A stretch of DNA of 11,895 bases from a bacterium (GTDB taxonomy: Bacteria; CSSED10-310; JAJRTK01), in contig JAJRTK010000533.1 in assembly GCA_024278345.1 (NCBI GenBank), positions 1 to 11,895 of the forward strand, in the 5' to 3' direction. The position numbers and the translations under genes were made by a program. Shown here piece by piece: positions 35-11,895 of this stretch (its first letter is position 1; every line of letters starts with the position of its first letter). Below the pieces are notes generated by a model, which did not search any database, was not told where the DNA came from, and worked only from the letters and a program-made list of their open reading frames with translations.

Positions 35-235
35 GGCCTCGGTCATGGTACCGGCCACGGTGCAGATTTCAGACGCCGCCCCAGGGCTTCCAGCCCTGGA
101 ACCCGGCGGAGGCTCTGCCTCAGGACCCCAGCTGGGAGCGCCGCTCCCAGACCCACGCCAGGGAGCCAGCTCCCTGGACCCACATCTTTGTGCGCTGCGC
201 GCTTTTTTCGGGTGGCCGGTACCATGACCGAGGCC
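35..235 (+). mobile_element. R1 miniature inverted-repeat element, copy 1 (full length)
   Basis: A 201-bp element bounded by 24-bp perfect terminal inverted repeats (35-58 and 212-235), which extend by three more pairs to 32-238 in this copy. Inside is a row of hairpins: GGAGGC/GCCTC near 105-118, CTGGGAGC-GCC-GCTCCCAG at 132-150, and CCAGGGAGC-CA-GCTCCCTGG at 158-177. A short GCGC stem followed by six T lies at 192-208. It has no credible gene; open frames across it run through the palindromes in every phase. By eye it differs from copy 2 at about eleven positions. The 9 bases on each side do not match, so no target-site duplication is visible here. It has the form of a MITE, a non-autonomous element moved by a transposase encoded elsewhere. 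Confidence 0.85.
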
Positions 236-2863: not shown

Positions 2864-3081
2864 CCCCGATGCGGCCTCGGTCATGGTACCGGCCACGGTT
2901 CAGATTTCAGACGCCGCCCCGGGGCTTCCAGCCCTGGAACCCGGCGGAGGCTCCGCCTCCGAACCTCCGCAGGAGCGCCACTCCCAGACCCACGCCAGGG
3001 AGCGAGCTCCCTGGACCCACATCTTTGTGCGCTGCGCGCTTTTTTCGGGTGGCCGGTACCATGACCGAGGCCCCCCGATGC
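2864..3081 (+). mobile_element. R1 miniature element, copy 2, with 9-bp target-site duplication
   Basis: The element itself is 2873-3072 (200 bp). It has the same terminal inverted repeats as copy 1 (2873-2896 and 3049-3072). It is flanked on both sides by CCCCGATGC (2864-2872 and 3073-3081), a perfect 9-bp direct repeat. This fixes the element's exact ends and shows it arrived by transposition. Internal hairpins are as in copy 1, but one arm of the CTGGGAGC hairpin has lost a base and changed another, while CCAGGGAGC-GA-GCTCCCTGG keeps both arms with a different centre. It lies just upstream of the lysoplasmalogenase gene. Confidence 0.92.
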
Positions 3082-3437
3082 CACACATTCCCATCGTTAT
3101 CATGCCCGGGAAATCCAGAAGAGACAAACGGAACCTGCCACAGGCATTCCCGCTCATCAGTTTCCCACAAACCCTGAAAAGCCTTGGTTCTTGTCCCCAA
3201 ATCGGAAGCCCCATGGGCAACTTCGGCCTCGGTCATCGGTGGGCACTTTGGCGACTATGGCTGACTCGGCACCAGCAACCCGTAAAATTTGGTCGAAAGA
3301 CGCCTTGGGGGCAGTGAGCCTGGTTGAAGGGCGATGATAGGGGAGGGGCGGCGGACGGATTGCCGCCGACCCGACCGGACCTCAACCCGTGAAGGAAGGT
3401 CGCCGATGGCATTTGCGGTTCCAGAACGGTCAAAGGT
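3082..3437. other. Non-coding stretch with R1 end relic and R2 copy
   Basis: No gene is seen. The 12-base word GGCCTCGGTCAT, identical to the outer end of R1, stands alone at 3225-3236. R2 occupies 3301-3387. The open frames across this stretch on the minus strand run through repeats and have no family features I know. Confidence 0.5.
3301..3387 (+). repeat. R2 repeat, full copy A
   Basis: From 3339 to 3386 this copy is almost identical to 11685-11732: GATAGGGGAGGGGCGGCGG, then GGA(T/C)TGCCGCC, then GACCCGACCGGACC(T/C)CAACC. GGCGGC and GCCGCC can pair into a hairpin. The left part, with GCAGTGAGCCTG, aligns more loosely with the other copies. Each better copy sits within a few hundred bases of an R1 element. 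It has no coding sense that I can find. Confidence 0.65.
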
Positions 3438-3906: not shown

Positions 3907-4767
3907 TCAAAATACTGATTCCCAACACGGAGTTTCTCGGTTATTCGATGAAGAAAAGTCGGTGAATGAACCCACCCAATGCCTCTCCAAAAGGAAAGAT
4001 TGAAAAAACTCGTCCCAACGGTCGGCCATGAGAATCGCCCTCAGATAGATGAGCGCCTCGAGATGCCCTTCTTTCCAGCACATGGAGGCTGATTTGAAGG
4101 GCAGGTGGATGATGCGTCGAATGGCACTAATATCGTACGCAGCGATTGATGGGACGAGCGCGGCGACCTCGAGCCAAAGGAGGGAGCCTCTCCAGGACTC
4201 GTGCGGCTCCTCCAGGCTCCAGAAGCAATCGGCTCAGTTCCCGGCGAAGTTCTTCCCGGGCTTTGTCCGAGAGGTTCTTACACTCCTTGAGGACTTCGGA
4301 AAGCGCCTTGGTGGCGTGATAATAGTCCAGCGCCACGAAGAGCCGCTCGGGATGAATTCCCACTTCATGCACCGGCTTACCGATGATGCGGCCCCAAATC
4401 CAGTCGGCCCCATCGGCGACGAAGATGACCTGCTTGGCCCGGTGAAGACCCAGCAAGCGCAAATTCCCCACGAGCAGGTCAAACGTCTCGGCGGCGACGG
4501 CCAGGCTCGTTTCGTAGATGGGCTTCACCGAAGGTCCACTTCTCCGTCGTCGTCCAGAATATCGATGGTGAGCACTCGAGGCTCTTTCCATTACCCTGGC
4601 GAATCCTCCGCCAGAGGATCCTCCAGCACCTCCTGGATGGCCCGGTTCGGGAGTTCGATGGCTTCCGCGCCCATGGACACCGCAAGCTGGGTGAGCCTGG
4701 AGACACCGAGTTTCAACCCGCCCCGCTCCAACTGCTCCCGGGCTTCTTCATGGGACGAGCAGAGAAC
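3907..4767 (-). pseudogene. Decayed ISKra4-like transposase
   Basis: Reading leftward on the minus strand, four segments match one transposase in order. Segment one has EEAREQLERGGLKLGVSRLT and AIQEVLEDPL, then an in-frame TAA (4591-4593). Segment two has WKEPRVLTIDILDDDGE, then TGA (4525-4527). A frame change leads to segment three, with YETSLAV, AKQVIFVADGADWIWGRI and ALDYYHATKAL, the typical catalytic-core strand and helix, ending at TAG (4127-4129). A second frame change leads to segment four, with AIRRIIHLPFKSASMCWKEG, LEALIYLRAIL and DRWDEFF, ending at TGA (3907-3909). The N-terminus is missing and there are internal deletions, so it cannot be active. The order of motifs fits ISKra4-type transposases; related DDE families with the same DGA-W-IW motif are the alternative. 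Confidence 0.75.
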
Positions 4768-4867
4768 GCTCCGCCTCCGAACCTCCGCTGGGAGCGCTGC
4801 TCCTGGACCTCGCCAGGGAGCTGGCTCCCTGGACCCACGTTCTTGTACGCTGCGCGTCTTTTTTTCT
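4768..4867 (+). mobile_element. R1 element, eroded copy 3 without termini
   Basis: The inner hairpin part of R1 is recognisable: GCTCCGCCTCCGAACCTCCGC, the GGGAGC-GCT-GCTCC hairpin, CCAGGGAGC-TG-GCTCCCTGG, and a CTGCGCGT stretch followed by seven T. Neither terminal inverted repeat is left, the left flank runs straight into transposase sequence and the right flank into unrelated bases. The CCAGGGAGC stem is intact despite a changed centre (TG instead of CA or GA). It abuts the broken N-terminal side of the transposase relic. Confidence 0.75.
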
Positions 4868-7426: not shown

Positions 7427-7593
7427 CTTCGACCTCCTTTTTTTTGAGACTCGGTGACGCCTTTCATTAGATCTTACGATTTTTTGCGTGGAGTTATTCA
7501 AAATGGGGTCGAACTTGACCGGAAACCGAAAAACTATTAGGAAGCTCGGGAACTTCTTTTTTATTGTCACGAAAACAGCAAGTTTTCCATCTT
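7427..7593. promoter_or_regulatory. Divergent intergenic region between sigma operon and helicase operon
   Basis: This 167-bp stretch is clearly richer in A and T than its surroundings and must hold promoters for both directions. For the sigma operon a weak pair is TTGAAT (complement of 7496-7501) and TAAGAT (complement of 7471-7476), but the spacing of 19 is long. On the plus strand the word GAACTT occurs twice (7511-7516 and 7550-7555), the second as GGGAACTT, which resembles an ECF -35 box. No matching -10 box is clear. None of these is firm. Confidence 0.4.
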
Positions 7594-10299
7594 ATGAAGC
7601 AAGTCGGTCTCACTCTTGTCATGACACCGGCCGGAAGGCTGGTTCCAGTGGAAGCTTCCGAAGCGCCGCCCATCGCCAGCGACGTTGCTCAACGACTGTT
7701 CGGCGCATTTTCGAGGGGCACGGGAGAAGGACTTTTGCAGCTTGGCGCGGGCGAAGTAGCGACGCCTCTTCCGGCGGTTTTCGTCTATTGGCGGGAACTG
7801 GGAACGCTTTATATGACCGCGGTTTGCACTCATGGCCAGGAAGAGGAACCGCACGGGGAGAGAGCGAGTCTTCCGCCACCGGAGGAGGAATTGGCGGTTT
7901 TGGCGGAAGCGCCTCCACTGATGAAGGGCGCCGAGTATCTGACCCTCGATCTTTTATTCAGGCTTTGGGACGAGCTCCATTGGTCGTTCCACGGGCGGTT
8001 GCGGGACTCTGGCAAATCTTTGCAGGAGCTTCTGCAGGAACTGAATCCGGCCTGGAACCTTGTGGGTCGCGTTCATTTTCATTTGGCGGAGAACCGGCGA
8101 GACCCGGACTACCCCTTCGCCTTTCTGGCGACCTATACGAGCCGCATGGCTGCTCATGCCAGGCCCAGGCACTCCCCGTTGGGGCAGGCGCTTCGGGAGT
8201 ATGCCGGCACGGCGAACAAGCAGCAGCTTCTCTCGCTTCTGACGCCGGTTCAGAAGGCGGCCCAGGCGTGTGATTGGCTGGCGGAAATGGTGGACTCGTC
8301 GGAGATTTTCCATCCTCTCCGATGGACCCCGCCGGAGGCATTCCGTTTTTTGAACGATCTTCCGAAGCTGGAGGCGGCTGGCGTCGTGGTTCGAGTCCCT
8401 GGAACCTGGAAGGCGAAACATCCTTCTAAGCCCATGGTCATGGGAACGGTTGGGGAGAACAAGCCTTCTCGGCTTGGGGCGGATTCGCTGCTCAATTTCC
8501 GGATGCAAGTCACTCTGGACGGCGAAGAGCTTACCGAACAAGAGATCCAGGCACTCCTACAGGAAACCTCGGGGCTGGTCTTGCTCCGGGGAAAGTGGAT
8601 TGAAATTGATCCCGAGAAACTCAAGAAGATGCTGGACGAGCTCCGCAGTGTGCAGAAACTGGCGGACAAGCGGGGGCTGACCTTTGCCGAAGGAATGCGA
8701 CTTCTGTCCGGAACTACCGCGGTGGAGGAGCTCGGGGAAGAGGAGTCAGCAGCGGATTGGTCCAAAATCGTGGCGGGCCCGTGGCTGGCCAAGATGCTTC
8801 GGGACCTGCGAAGCCCCGAGGGGTTGGCGGTGATTCGGCCGGGGAAAGCCGTGAAGACGAAGCTCCGGCCCTACCAGCAGGTGGGGGTCCGGTGGCTCAG
8901 GCTTCTGTCCGAGCTTGGTCTTGGCGCCTGTCTTGCCGATGACATGGGGCTTGGCAAGACGATCCAAGTCTTGGCTCTGTTGGTCATCCTGAAGCGGAAG
9001 AAGAATGTGGAACGCCGTCCCAGCCTTCTCTTGGCCCCCGCTTCTTTGTTGGCGAACTGGGCGGCGGAGGTTGAGCGGTTCACGCCCAGCCTCAAGATTC
9101 TGCTGGCCCACGGTTCGGCGATGCCTCGTACGGAGCTGAAGACATTGACGGAAAAAAGGCTGAAAAAAGTCGATCTTGTCATCACGAGCTACGGCTCGTT
9201 GCTCCGGCTTCCCTGGCTGGAGGAGACAGCGTGGCGGCTTGTGATCCTGGACGAGGCGCAGGCCATCAAGAATCCGGGCGCGAAACAGACACGGGCCGCC
9301 AAGAAGCTGACGGCCTGGACAAGGATCGCCCTCACGGGGACGCCTGTGGAAAACCGGCTGTCGGATCTCTGGTCGATCTTCGATTTCCTGAATCCGGGGC
9401 TCCTGGGCTCCAACCGAGAGTTCACAGAATTCGTTAAGCGCCTGGACGAGAGGGAGCACAACCCTTACGCGCCTCTCCGAAGGCTGGTGCGGCCGTACAT
9501 TCTCCGGCGGCTGAATACCGATCCCAAGGTGATTTCGGACTTGCCGGAGAAGACGGAGCTCAAGGCCTATTGCCACTTGAGCCGGACCCAAGCGGCCCTG
9601 TACCAGCAATCCGTGGACGAGCTGCGGGACGGGCTGGACGACGTGGACGGGATCCAGCGACGCGGCATTATTCTCTCCTTCCTTTTGCGGTTCAAACAGA
9701 TCTGCAACCATCCCTCGCAGTGGCTGGGGGACAGCGGTTGGGCCGAAAAGGAGAGCGGGAAAATGCAGAGGCTCCGCCAGATCGTGGAGGTCCTTGCCGA
9801 GCGGCAAGAAAAAGCCCTGATTTTTACTCAGTTTCGCCAAGTGATGGAACCGCTGGCGGCCTTCCTTGGGAAGCTGTTCGGTCGCCCGGGACTGATGCTC
9901 CACGGAGGGACTCCGGTCAAGAAGCGAAAAGAGTTGGTCCGCCGGCTCCAGGAGGGCGAGGCCCCTTTCTTCTTGCTCTCTCTCAAGGCCGGCGGCTCGG
10001 GGTTGAACCTCACGGCCGCATCCCACGTCATCCATTTCGACAGGTGGTGGAACCCGGCGGTGGAGAACCAGGCAACGGATCGGGCTTTCAGGATCGGGCA
10101 GCACAAAAACGTCCTGGTCCACAAGTTTATCTGCCGCGGTACCATTGAAGAGAAGATCGATCAGCTCATCGACGACAAGCGCAAGATTTCCACGGAGATC
10201 CTCGAAGCGGGCGGCAACCAGCTATTGACGGAAATGCCCAATGACGAACTCCTTCAACTGGTCGCTCTTGACCTCCGAGCGGCTTCCCAGGAGGGTTAA
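7594..10299 (+). CDS. SNF2-family DEAD/DEAH-box helicase (ATP-dependent DNA translocase)
   Basis: A 901-residue SNF2 ATPase. The N-terminal half (about 1-430) fits the SNF2-associated region of bacterial members, including the well-kept stretch FLATYTSRMAAHARPRHSPL followed by IFHPLRWTPPEAFRFL. The motor follows: motif I DMGLGKT (450-456), Ia LLLAPASLLANWAAE, II DEAQ (553-556), III LTGTPVENRLSDLWS, then lobe two with ALIFTQFRQVME, V GGSGLNL (from 800) and VI QATDRAFRIGQ (from 826). All catalytic motifs are intact. Such proteins move along duplex DNA and displace bound proteins. The ATG at 7594 is chosen over TTG 7564 because protein-like sequence starts there; neither has a clear ribosome binding site, so the start is uncertain. 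The SWIM gene follows after 5 bases. SNF2-SWIM gene pairs are known (for example ywqA-ywqB in Bacillus subtilis), with no settled role; DNA repair, transcription or phage defence are all possible. Confidence 0.93.
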   Translation: MKQVGLTLVMTPAGRLVPVEASEAPPIASDVAQRLFGAFSRGTGEGLLQLGAGEVATPLPAVFVYWRELGTLYMTAVCTHGQEEEPHGERASLPPPEEELAVLAEAPPLMKGAEYLTLDLLFRLWDELHWSFHGRLRDSGKSLQELLQELNPAWNLVGRVHFHLAENRRDPDYPFAFLATYTSRMAAHARPRHSPLGQALREYAGTANKQQLLSLLTPVQKAAQACDWLAEMVDSSEIFHPLRWTPPEAFRFLNDLPKLEAAGVVVRVPGTWKAKHPSKPMVMGTVGENKPSRLGADSLLNFRMQVTLDGEELTEQEIQALLQETSGLVLLRGKWIEIDPEKLKKMLDELRSVQKLADKRGLTFAEGMRLLSGTTAVEELGEEESAADWSKIVAGPWLAKMLRDLRSPEGLAVIRPGKAVKTKLRPYQQVGVRWLRLLSELGLGACLADDMGLGKTIQVLALLVILKRKKNVERRPSLLLAPASLLANWAAEVERFTPSLKILLAHGSAMPRTELKTLTEKRLKKVDLVITSYGSLLRLPWLEETAWRLVILDEAQAIKNPGAKQTRAAKKLTAWTRIALTGTPVENRLSDLWSIFDFLNPGLLGSNREFTEFVKRLDEREHNPYAPLRRLVRPYILRRLNTDPKVISDLPEKTELKAYCHLSRTQAALYQQSVDELRDGLDDVDGIQRRGIILSFLLRFKQICNHPSQWLGDSGWAEKESGKMQRLRQIVEVLAERQEKALIFTQFRQVMEPLAAFLGKLFGRPGLMLHGGTPVKKRKELVRRLQEGEAPFFLLSLKAGGSGLNLTAASHVIHFDRWWNPAVENQATDRAFRIGQHKNVLVHKFICRGTIEEKIDQLIDDKRKISTEILEAGGNQLLTEMPNDELLQLVALDLRAASQEG

Positions 10300-10304
10300 G
10301 CAAG

Positions 10305-11573
10305 ATGTCTTACTACGAATATGGCTACTACCCCCGGTACGTCAGCGTCGCGGAACGGCGGCACAAGGCGGAGAAACAGCGAAAGAAACTGGAAAAAAAA
10401 GGGCGCAAGCTGTCGCCCATCGAGATCGAGGGACGGGGAATTGCAAAGACTTTCTGGGGAAAGTCCTGGTGCGGAAACCTCGAACGCTATGCCGACTACG
10501 AGAACCGCATCGGCCGGGGCCGCTCCTACGTTCGCCACGGCTCGGTCATCGACCTCGAGATCGAGGTCTGCCGGGTCAAGGCTCTGGTGGCCGGACGCAA
10601 GCTCTACACTGTGGAAATCGAGATCGAGGCCGTCCCTAAAAAGCGCTGGAAGTCGATATGCAAAGACTGCTCCGGATCCATCGACTCCTTGGTGGACCTC
10701 TTGAAGGGTCGATTGGACAAGAGCGTCATGGACCGGCTCTGCCGCCAAAAGAGCGGCCTCTTCCCGGCGCCAGCCGAAATCTCCTTCGACTGTAGCTGCC
10801 CCGACTGGGCCTCCATGTGCAAACATGTCGCCGCTGTTCTGTATGGAATCGGCGCACGGCTGGACCATGACCCCGAACTCCTCTTCCTGCTCCGGGATGT
10901 GGATCAAAGCGAGATTTTGGCAAACGCGGGGACGGATCTGTCTCTGGGAGGCGAGAGCATCGAGCAAGAGAAGGTTCTGGAGGGGAATGACTTGGCTGAC
11001 CTCTTCGATATCGACATCGCGGTGGAACCCGATCCGCCCAAACCGACGAAGCGCAAACGCGCCTCCAGGGTCAAGACCGCCACGGCAAAGGCAGTGCGTT
11101 CCCCGGCGAAGCCGGCGGCAAGAAAGACCAGCGTTCGAAGCAAAAAAACGGCAATTGCCTCCAAGAAGACCACCAGCACCAAAGCCAAGAGCGCCACAAG
11201 GTCTAAGGCACGCACCTCCGCCAAAAAGCCGGCGGGCACCAAGGCCAGGGCACGCACACCCGCTCCTCGCAAAGCCCGCGTTCCGGTGGCACGGGCTGGC
11301 ACGACCATCAAGAGGGCTACCGCGAGCCCACGTCGCCCCAAGACCACCAGCACCACCCCGGCTCCGGACAAACAAGCCGGGAGAATCCAGACCGAAGCGC
11401 TCTTGGCAGCCGTCATTCGCCTCCAGGGGAGAAGTGGCGTCACCGCGGCCAGACTTGCCAAAGACCTCGGAGTCTCCGCGAGCACCATGAACAAGATGAT
11501 CGCGACGCTGGTGAAAAACGACCTGCTACGGCAAGCCGAAACGAGGCCGAAAAGCTACCGCTTCGCATTTTGA
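10305..11573 (+). CDS. SWIM zinc-finger protein with H1-like basic tail and C-terminal winged helix
   Basis: A 422-residue protein with three parts. Residues 1-240 form the SWIM region: a basic coiled stretch (about 17-36), the opening motif AKTFWGKSWCGNLERY (47-62), and the zinc site C163-x-C165-x6-C172-x-H174 followed by a hydrophobic helix. Residues 246-355 are a low-complexity tail of K, R, A, T, S and P with no acidic residue, like histone H1 or bacterial H1-like proteins. Residues 360-422 look like a winged helix-turn-helix: ALLAAVIRLQGRSGVTAARL, AKDLGVSASTMNKMIATLV, and a final basic wing. SWIM domains are expected to bind DNA or protein. AGGAGGG (10289-10295) lies nine bases before the ATG, and only 5 bases separate it from the helicase stop, so the two are one operon. 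The tail and the last domain probably add non-specific and specific DNA contacts. The partner helicase could be loaded by it. Confidence 0.9.
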   Translation: MSYYEYGYYPRYVSVAERRHKAEKQRKKLEKKGRKLSPIEIEGRGIAKTFWGKSWCGNLERYADYENRIGRGRSYVRHGSVIDLEIEVCRVKALVAGRKLYTVEIEIEAVPKKRWKSICKDCSGSIDSLVDLLKGRLDKSVMDRLCRQKSGLFPAPAEISFDCSCPDWASMCKHVAAVLYGIGARLDHDPELLFLLRDVDQSEILANAGTDLSLGGESIEQEKVLEGNDLADLFDIDIAVEPDPPKPTKRKRASRVKTATAKAVRSPAKPAARKTSVRSKKTAIASKKTTSTKAKSATRSKARTSAKKPAGTKARARTPAPRKARVPVARAGTTIKRATASPRRPKTTSTTPAPDKQAGRIQTEALLAAVIRLQGRSGVTAARLAKDLGVSASTMNKMIATLVKNDLLRQAETRPKSYRFAF

Positions 11574-11602: not shown

Positions 11603-11755
11603 GTGTTCATCGGCGACCACCAATTGAGCGGTAACCTTGAGGATCGGGTTTTAGGGCAGTAGGCCTGTTCGAACGGGGTGACAGGGGAGGGGCGGCGGAC
11701 GGACTGCCGCCGACCCGACCGGACCCCAACCAGAAGCGAGAGGCGTGGTTTTCAG
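11603..11755. other. Intergenic tail holding R2 before the last R1 copy
   Basis: No gene is seen. R2 copy B fills 11649-11732, and about 23 bases separate it from the terminal repeat of R1 copy 4. Confidence 0.5.
11649..11732 (+). repeat. R2 repeat, full copy B
   Basis: The right half (11685-11732) differs from copy A at only about three positions and keeps the GGCGGC/GCCGCC hairpin. The left half (TTAGGGCAGT, CCTGTTCGAACGGGGTGACAGG) is looser; CCTGTTCGAACGGG also contains the palindrome TTCGAA. It precedes R1 copy 4 just as the partial R2 precedes R1 copy 1. Confidence 0.65.
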
Positions 11756-11895
11756 GGCCTCGGTCATGGTACCGGCCACGGTTCAGATTTCAGACGCCGC
11801 CCCGGGGCTTCCAGCCCTGGAACCCGGCGGAGGCTCCGCCTCCGGACCTCCGCTGGGAGCGCCGCTCCCAGACCCACGCCAGGGAGCCAGCTCCC
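11756..11895 (+). mobile_element. R1 miniature element, copy 4, cut by the window edge
   Basis: The first 140 bases of R1 are present from the terminal repeat to the start of the CCAGGGAGC hairpin, in the same orientation as the other copies. By eye about five positions differ from copy 2 and the CTGGGAGC-GCC-GCTCCCAG hairpin is intact. The right end and any target-site duplication lie outside the window. Confidence 0.88.

Follow-up and report, generated by a model that had tools for sequence, protein, structure and literature searches.

The window, meaning the whole stretch of 11,895 nucleotides that was analysed, is one contig (C481) of a 6.06-Mb, 550-contig genome assembly that is 87.9% complete. 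Positions 7564-11573 encode an intact SNF2-type helicase (911 aa) and, after it, a protein of 422 aa that gave a weak SWIM-type match and contains a basic, lysine-rich repeat region. A degenerate transposase-like gene fragment (..VADGADWIWGRIIG..ALDYYHATKALSEVLK) lies on the minus strand at 4049-4763, where it abuts a truncated hairpin chain; this fragment showed no Pfam or plasmid match. A dispersed repeat (..GGCGATGATAGGGGAGGGGCGGCGGACGGATTGCCGCCGACCCGACCGGACC..) was seen at 394-461, 3284-3387, 11640-11731 and 1-34, and R1 copy 1 may lie inside one of its copies. The features below belong to the repeat R1, very probably a MITE, and to its relatives.

35..235, + strand: R1 copy 1, complete, 201 bp, type A; ends 35-58 and 212-235 perfectly complementary
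2864..2872, no strand: left target duplication of R1 copy 2, CCCCGATGC, read from the sequence
2873..3072, + strand: R1 copy 2, complete, 200 bp, type B; ends 2873-2896 and 3049-3072, 24/24 complementary
3073..3081, no strand: right target duplication of R1 copy 2, CCCCGATGC, read from the sequence
3225..3242, + strand: superfamily end GGCCTCGGTCATCGGTGG; the genome has 53 sites of this kind
4768..4867, + strand: hairpin-chain relative, truncated, starting midway in hairpin 2 and extending to the T-run; no MITE ends
11756..11895, + strand: R1 copy 4, left 140 bases, type B; truncated by the end of the contig

The perfect 24-bp terminal inverted repeat shared by copies 1 and 2 reads GGCCTCGGTCATGGTACCGGCCAC. 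In copy 1, all 24 positions were complementary, or 27 of 27 when the adjoining GAG/CTC was counted, and the two copies were approximately 95% identical. These coordinates and ends had been proposed in an earlier, sequence-only reading of the window, as had the perfect 9-bp duplication CCCCGATGC on both sides of copy 2, and both were reproduced. That reading counted four copies, of which copies 1, 2 and 4 were retained; the remaining one (4768-4867) proved to match just part of the chain, with approximately 84% identity across the shared parts and neither terminal repeat. Copy 1 showed no target duplication, its left flank consisting of just 34 bases of contig. R1 has no coding capacity, as had been anticipated: only chance reading frames cross its 199-201 bp. 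Open frames around R1 insertions were long and overlapping, in G+C-rich DNA. An Rfam scan of the window and of R1 copy 1 gave no match above chance.

Copy numbers were derived from searches of the genome. The 24-bp end, with at most 2 mismatches, was found 108 times in forward and 108 times in reverse orientation (216 in total), while a reversed-pattern control gave no matches in the same genome. Most of the examined R1 sites lay at contig edges, and contigs broke off up to approximately 140 bases inside R1, as would be expected of an assembly whose overlaps of about 140 bases are too short to cross a 200-bp repeat. The genome therefore holds about 100 copies. The suspicion that the family might be high-copy was therefore justified. 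Forty copies were scored, of which the complete ones measured 199-201 bp; a 174-bp deletion derivative (L071) also occurred. R1 was divided into two types, or subfamilies, by three distinguishing sites, and copies differed from the consensus of their own type by 1-7 bases (roughly 1-2%), in agreement with the low divergence first noted among the complete copies.

Target duplications were scored in R1 and in elements with related ends, which together form a wider superfamily. Both ends were readable in 40 superfamily elements, and 18 of these were flanked by a duplication of 8 or 9 bp, allowing for no more than one mismatch. In a control of 200 trials that re-paired left flanks with right flanks at random, the mean was 0.47 duplications and the maximum 3. 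Complete R1 copies situated well inside contigs, defined by flanks longer than 300 bases on each side, carried a perfect 8-9-bp duplication in eight of nine cases (L005, L006, L014, L016, L018, L022, L024, and L026), L010 being the sole exception. The usual length was 8 bp, with 9 bp found in a minority (L014 and window copy 2). Flanking duplications, which had been expected as 9-mers, were thus consistent in occurrence but typically one base shorter. The other R1 copies without a duplication, window copy 1 included, all lay no more than about 225 bases from a contig end, a position at which recombination between copies, or a chimeric join, is likely.

Related ends were widespread in the genome. 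Ends of a wider type such as GGCCTTGGTCATCGTTTCGGCCA occurred at 31 further sites, and the related end GGNNNYGGTCATCGGTGG, often extended as TGCCTTCGGCAGCTCTCGCTGTCGCTCGGACCCGGCCAC, at 53 further sites. Elements bounded by related ends had the same duplication length as R1. Some of their interiors contained hairpin chains like that of R1, some were expanded by extra hairpins (L094, L135, and L142), and others lacked the chain: L105, of approximately 154 bp, was flanked by the duplication GGGAATCC, and L129 measured 91 bp. Since these chain-less members (about 90-154 bp) share ends and duplications with the others, mobility is defined by the ends, with the chain as cargo. Within this larger, older superfamily, R1 forms the youngest branch.

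The sequence between the R1 ends consists of four strong hairpins (H1-H4), one weak hairpin and one short hairpin followed by T6. In copy 1 they are placed as follows.

81..99, + strand: hairpin H1, from the fold; inner pair T-A replaced by C-G in relatives, a compensatory change
107..123, + strand: hairpin H2, from the fold; no compensated pairs in relatives
132..150, + strand: hairpin H3, from the fold; UA to CG and GC to AU compensated in relatives
158..177, + strand: hairpin H4; in other copies the insertion point of an intron or IS lies just downstream
192..208 (3027-3045 in copy 2), + strand only: short hairpin with T6, terminator-like

The RNA fold of 35-235 had a predicted energy of -126.6 kcal/mol (z = -9.15, against 200 shuffles). 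In copy 2, the terminator-like feature was recovered as two overlapping matches, against 0.1 expected from shuffles, and each R1 copy may therefore be able to stop transcription in one direction, on the + strand. Another locus (L068, C133:90-235) carried a different hairpin chain (GGGGCCTCCGGCCCC..CAGGGCTTTGCCCTG..CAGGGAGCTCGCTCCCTGG..) with GTACATTCATGTACG and a T-rich tail at its end; the chain apparently belongs to a further repeat, which is connected to an R1 left end.

Conservation of the chain was analysed in 18 diverged chains, in which 94% of pair cells were paired. Each of the compensated pairs in H1 and H3 occurred in four of these chains. None of 500 shuffles reached the observed covariation score or the observed count of doubly changed cells. 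However, the number of doubly changed pairs was reached by 72 of the 500, which indicated few independent events; the covariation check that had been proposed thus gave a positive outcome for the first two measures and not for the third. Within the R1 burst, 9 distinct variants were found at 70 stem sites and 29 at 83 unpaired interior sites (Fisher p ~0.02, in a single exploratory comparison). Together, these patterns suggest that the hairpins have been kept, either through selection or through template-switch correction. It is conceivable, although we consider it unlikely, that the chain is kept for a host function, as a terminator, RNA stabiliser or protein-binding site, which would be compatible with R1 being a MITE. 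The lower number of distinct variants in stems, the compensatory pairs in H1 and H3 and the T6 tail at the end of the chain are consistent with such a role. Conversely, independent changes are few, template-switch correction can likewise preserve perfect hairpins, and members without the chain have spread too. The earlier suggestion that the chain may be functional was supported only in part, by stems more conserved than linkers and by an intron landing site (see below), and not as regards a host function.

With its short non-coding sequence, terminal inverted repeats, fixed-length duplication and multiple copies of low divergence, R1 has the characteristics of a MITE, and we have little doubt that it is a 199-201-bp non-coding element of this kind, mobilised in trans by a transposase of the DDE type acting on its 24-bp ends. 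Such a transposase would bind these ends and cut the target with a stagger of 8 (sometimes 9) bp, which would yield direct duplications of equal length; the route would probably be cut-and-paste, with the hairpin chain carried as cargo between the ends. Two observations weigh against this assignment: an autonomous element with R1 ends was not found among the three transposase families scanned, and several copies, including window copy 1, lacked duplications, though nearly all of these are at contig edges. The spread of a MITE family through this genome, as put forward in the sequence-only reading, is supported by consistent ends, by duplications at unrelated sites and by low divergence. Inconsistent ends, absence of duplications or occurrence only inside longer repeats would have spoken against it; each was looked for and none was found.

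A spread of R1 without transposition, through recombination or gene conversion between older repeats, would fit the copies without target duplication and the loci at which R1 adjoins or lies within other repeats. This explanation is very unlikely in view of the exact ends of R1 and of its perfect 8-9-bp duplications at unrelated sequences, whose number far exceeded that of the re-pairing control.

Other mobile elements had inserted into the chain just after H4, its last long hairpin. A group II intron was recognised by seven junctions, all at one exact point directly after GGAC, equivalent to window 179/180. In the three 5' junctions (C78, C128, and C38), H4 and GGAC were followed by the intron 5' end GTRCGCCTGAAAGCACATTCGGACAGG, and all three read GCTCCCTGGAC|GTRCGCC. 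The four 3' junctions (C206, C32, C109, and C96) all showed the intron 3' end CCTACCCCTAT|, followed by the tail of the chain. Two of the 5' junctions (C78 and C128) and one 3' junction (C32) were in R1 proper; the remaining four were in related chains. Domain V/VI was matched by Rfam RF00029 (58 bits) in C206, C32, and C109, whereas domains I-IV gave no Rfam matches at E 0.01 in L116, L067, and L069. In C38, the 5' part of the intron includes the beginning of a group II reverse transcriptase (TIGR04416 fragment, E 4.6e-23), which scored under the full-length cut-off because the contig ends. These results identify H4 plus GGAC as a preferred group II intron insertion point. Class C introns insert at hairpin motifs, either terminators or attC (PMC4424553), and by analogy the intron found here appears to behave like class C in its hairpin targeting, the landing hairpin in this case being MITE-borne.

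An unrelated two-ORF IS was likewise inserted just after H4, behind GGACC (equivalent to window 180/181), with CCCTGGACC on both sides.

L066 (C33:39-1657) and L075 (C464): two-ORF IS with its own ends, TGGGGTGGTGAATTT..AAATTCACCACCCCA

The junctions of this IS were found on separate contigs, one with R1 left-end sequence (C33) and the other with R1 right-end sequence (C464), so that a single insertion into R1 with a 9-bp duplication is only inferred. The 423-aa transposase had no Pfam or NCBIfam match. It shared 30-32% identity with unnamed proteins encoded on plasmids of Nostoc and Thiodictyon, and its plasmid-borne relatives from Nostoc, Calothrix, and Thiodictyon carry the annotation hypothetical. 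The IS with TGGGGTGGTGAATTT ends possibly represents an unnamed family. The location of a transposase gene between R1 left-end and, on the other contig, right-end sequence could suggest that this IS is the parent of R1. That is most improbable, since the IS has ends of its own, is flanked on both sides by R1 sequence and has a further junction in non-R1 DNA at the start of C33; it was rejected as the parent and is considered a separate IS inserted into R1.

Repeats of the REP, BIME and REPIN type are, like R1, dispersed, palindromic and of high copy number, and each 24-bp end of R1 is self-foldable (GGCC..GGCC) in an element full of hairpins. Single-strand HUH transposition is not known to leave a target duplication. 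As R1 has target duplications, is 5-10 times longer than these repeats and lacks at its ends the GTAG or CGTC tag of the 20-40-bp REPs (PMC3733652), its movement as a REP/REPIN-type repeat by a RAYT (tyrosine) transposase can practically be discounted.

A search for an autonomous IS with the same 24-bp ends had been proposed in the sequence-only reading. The 87.9%-complete assembly was scanned for three transposase families (PF00872, PF12762, and PF01609); no autonomous element with R1 ends was found in this search. Derivation from IS256 was rejected, as the genome contained no match to its transposase (Transposase_mut, PF00872). The same applied to IS1595, for which two transposase matches were found, neither adjoined by an R1-like end; the sequence common to both loci begins GGCTCTATATGCGATC. 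ISAs1-type transposases were present with ends that differ from those of R1. All but four of the R1-type ends in the genome continued with MITE-like bases at two tested positions, and no transposase with R1 ends was recognised alongside these four sites. A candidate autonomous element, 'R4' (GGCCTTGGTCATAGTACCGGCCAT + GACCCTGTGAG..), proved to be a short repeat with one R1-like end, present at three loci. The partner may have been lost, may be located in the missing 12% of the genome or may belong to a family other than those scanned.

R1 was absent from 97 relatives, including 7 from the same phylum. Neither the R1 end nor H4 with its linker had matches in viral contigs, and R1 had none in plasmid and phage collections. 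A search of genome contigs revealed a related 23-bp end, GGCCTTGGTCATGGTACCGGCCA, in a MAG of an uncultured Lamprocystis, an unrelated bacterium (L078 7931-7953, near the contig end); at a distance of about 130 bases lies an inverted end that matches it in part. No transposase was recognised in the part of this contig that was examined, and the 23-bp end had no plasmid match. This element is possibly a related MITE.

In size and abundance, R1 has its closest published parallel in the hupL MITE from Candidatus Thiomargarita nelsonii, of about 205 bp, with matches on 260 of 439 contigs and no parental IS identified (PMC4853749). The two share their size, terminal inverted repeats with flanking direct repeats, and a parent IS that has not been found, a likeness taken from their descriptions; the hupL element differs in its 19-bp repeats and 10-bp direct repeats, against 24 and 8-9 bp in R1, and the text consulted mentions no hairpin chain hosting a group II intron (PMC4853749). 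MITEAba12 is also non-coding and has duplications of 9 (some 8) bp, visible in only 40% of copies; unlike R1 it is shorter (111-114 bp), has 16-bp ends, derives from a known parent (ISAba12) and reaches no more than 22 copies per genome (PMC6382973).

Elements of the kind to which R1 belongs, ordinary parasite DNA, are already known. Beyond what had been read from the window itself, this study adds the usual duplication length of 8 bp, the existence of a superfamily, the role of the chain as cargo and its use as an intron landing site. With approximately 100 near-identical copies and a larger, older superfamily, this 6-Mb genome, of which only a handful of relatives have been sequenced, shows a recent MITE burst that accounts for many of the breaks in the 550-contig assembly. 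Reuse of a MITE hairpin by a group II intron offers a simple system in which to study whether hairpin-seeking introns need the safe targets provided by other mobile elements. More speculatively, and in our estimation improbably, the hairpin array, spread by the MITE superfamily, could be a portable, harmless landing pad that draws group II introns and ISs into MITE hairpins and away from genes, ends transcription in one direction and is kept for its benefit to the host or the mobile community. If correct, this would amount to three nested levels: a DNA transposon, a retroelement and their host.
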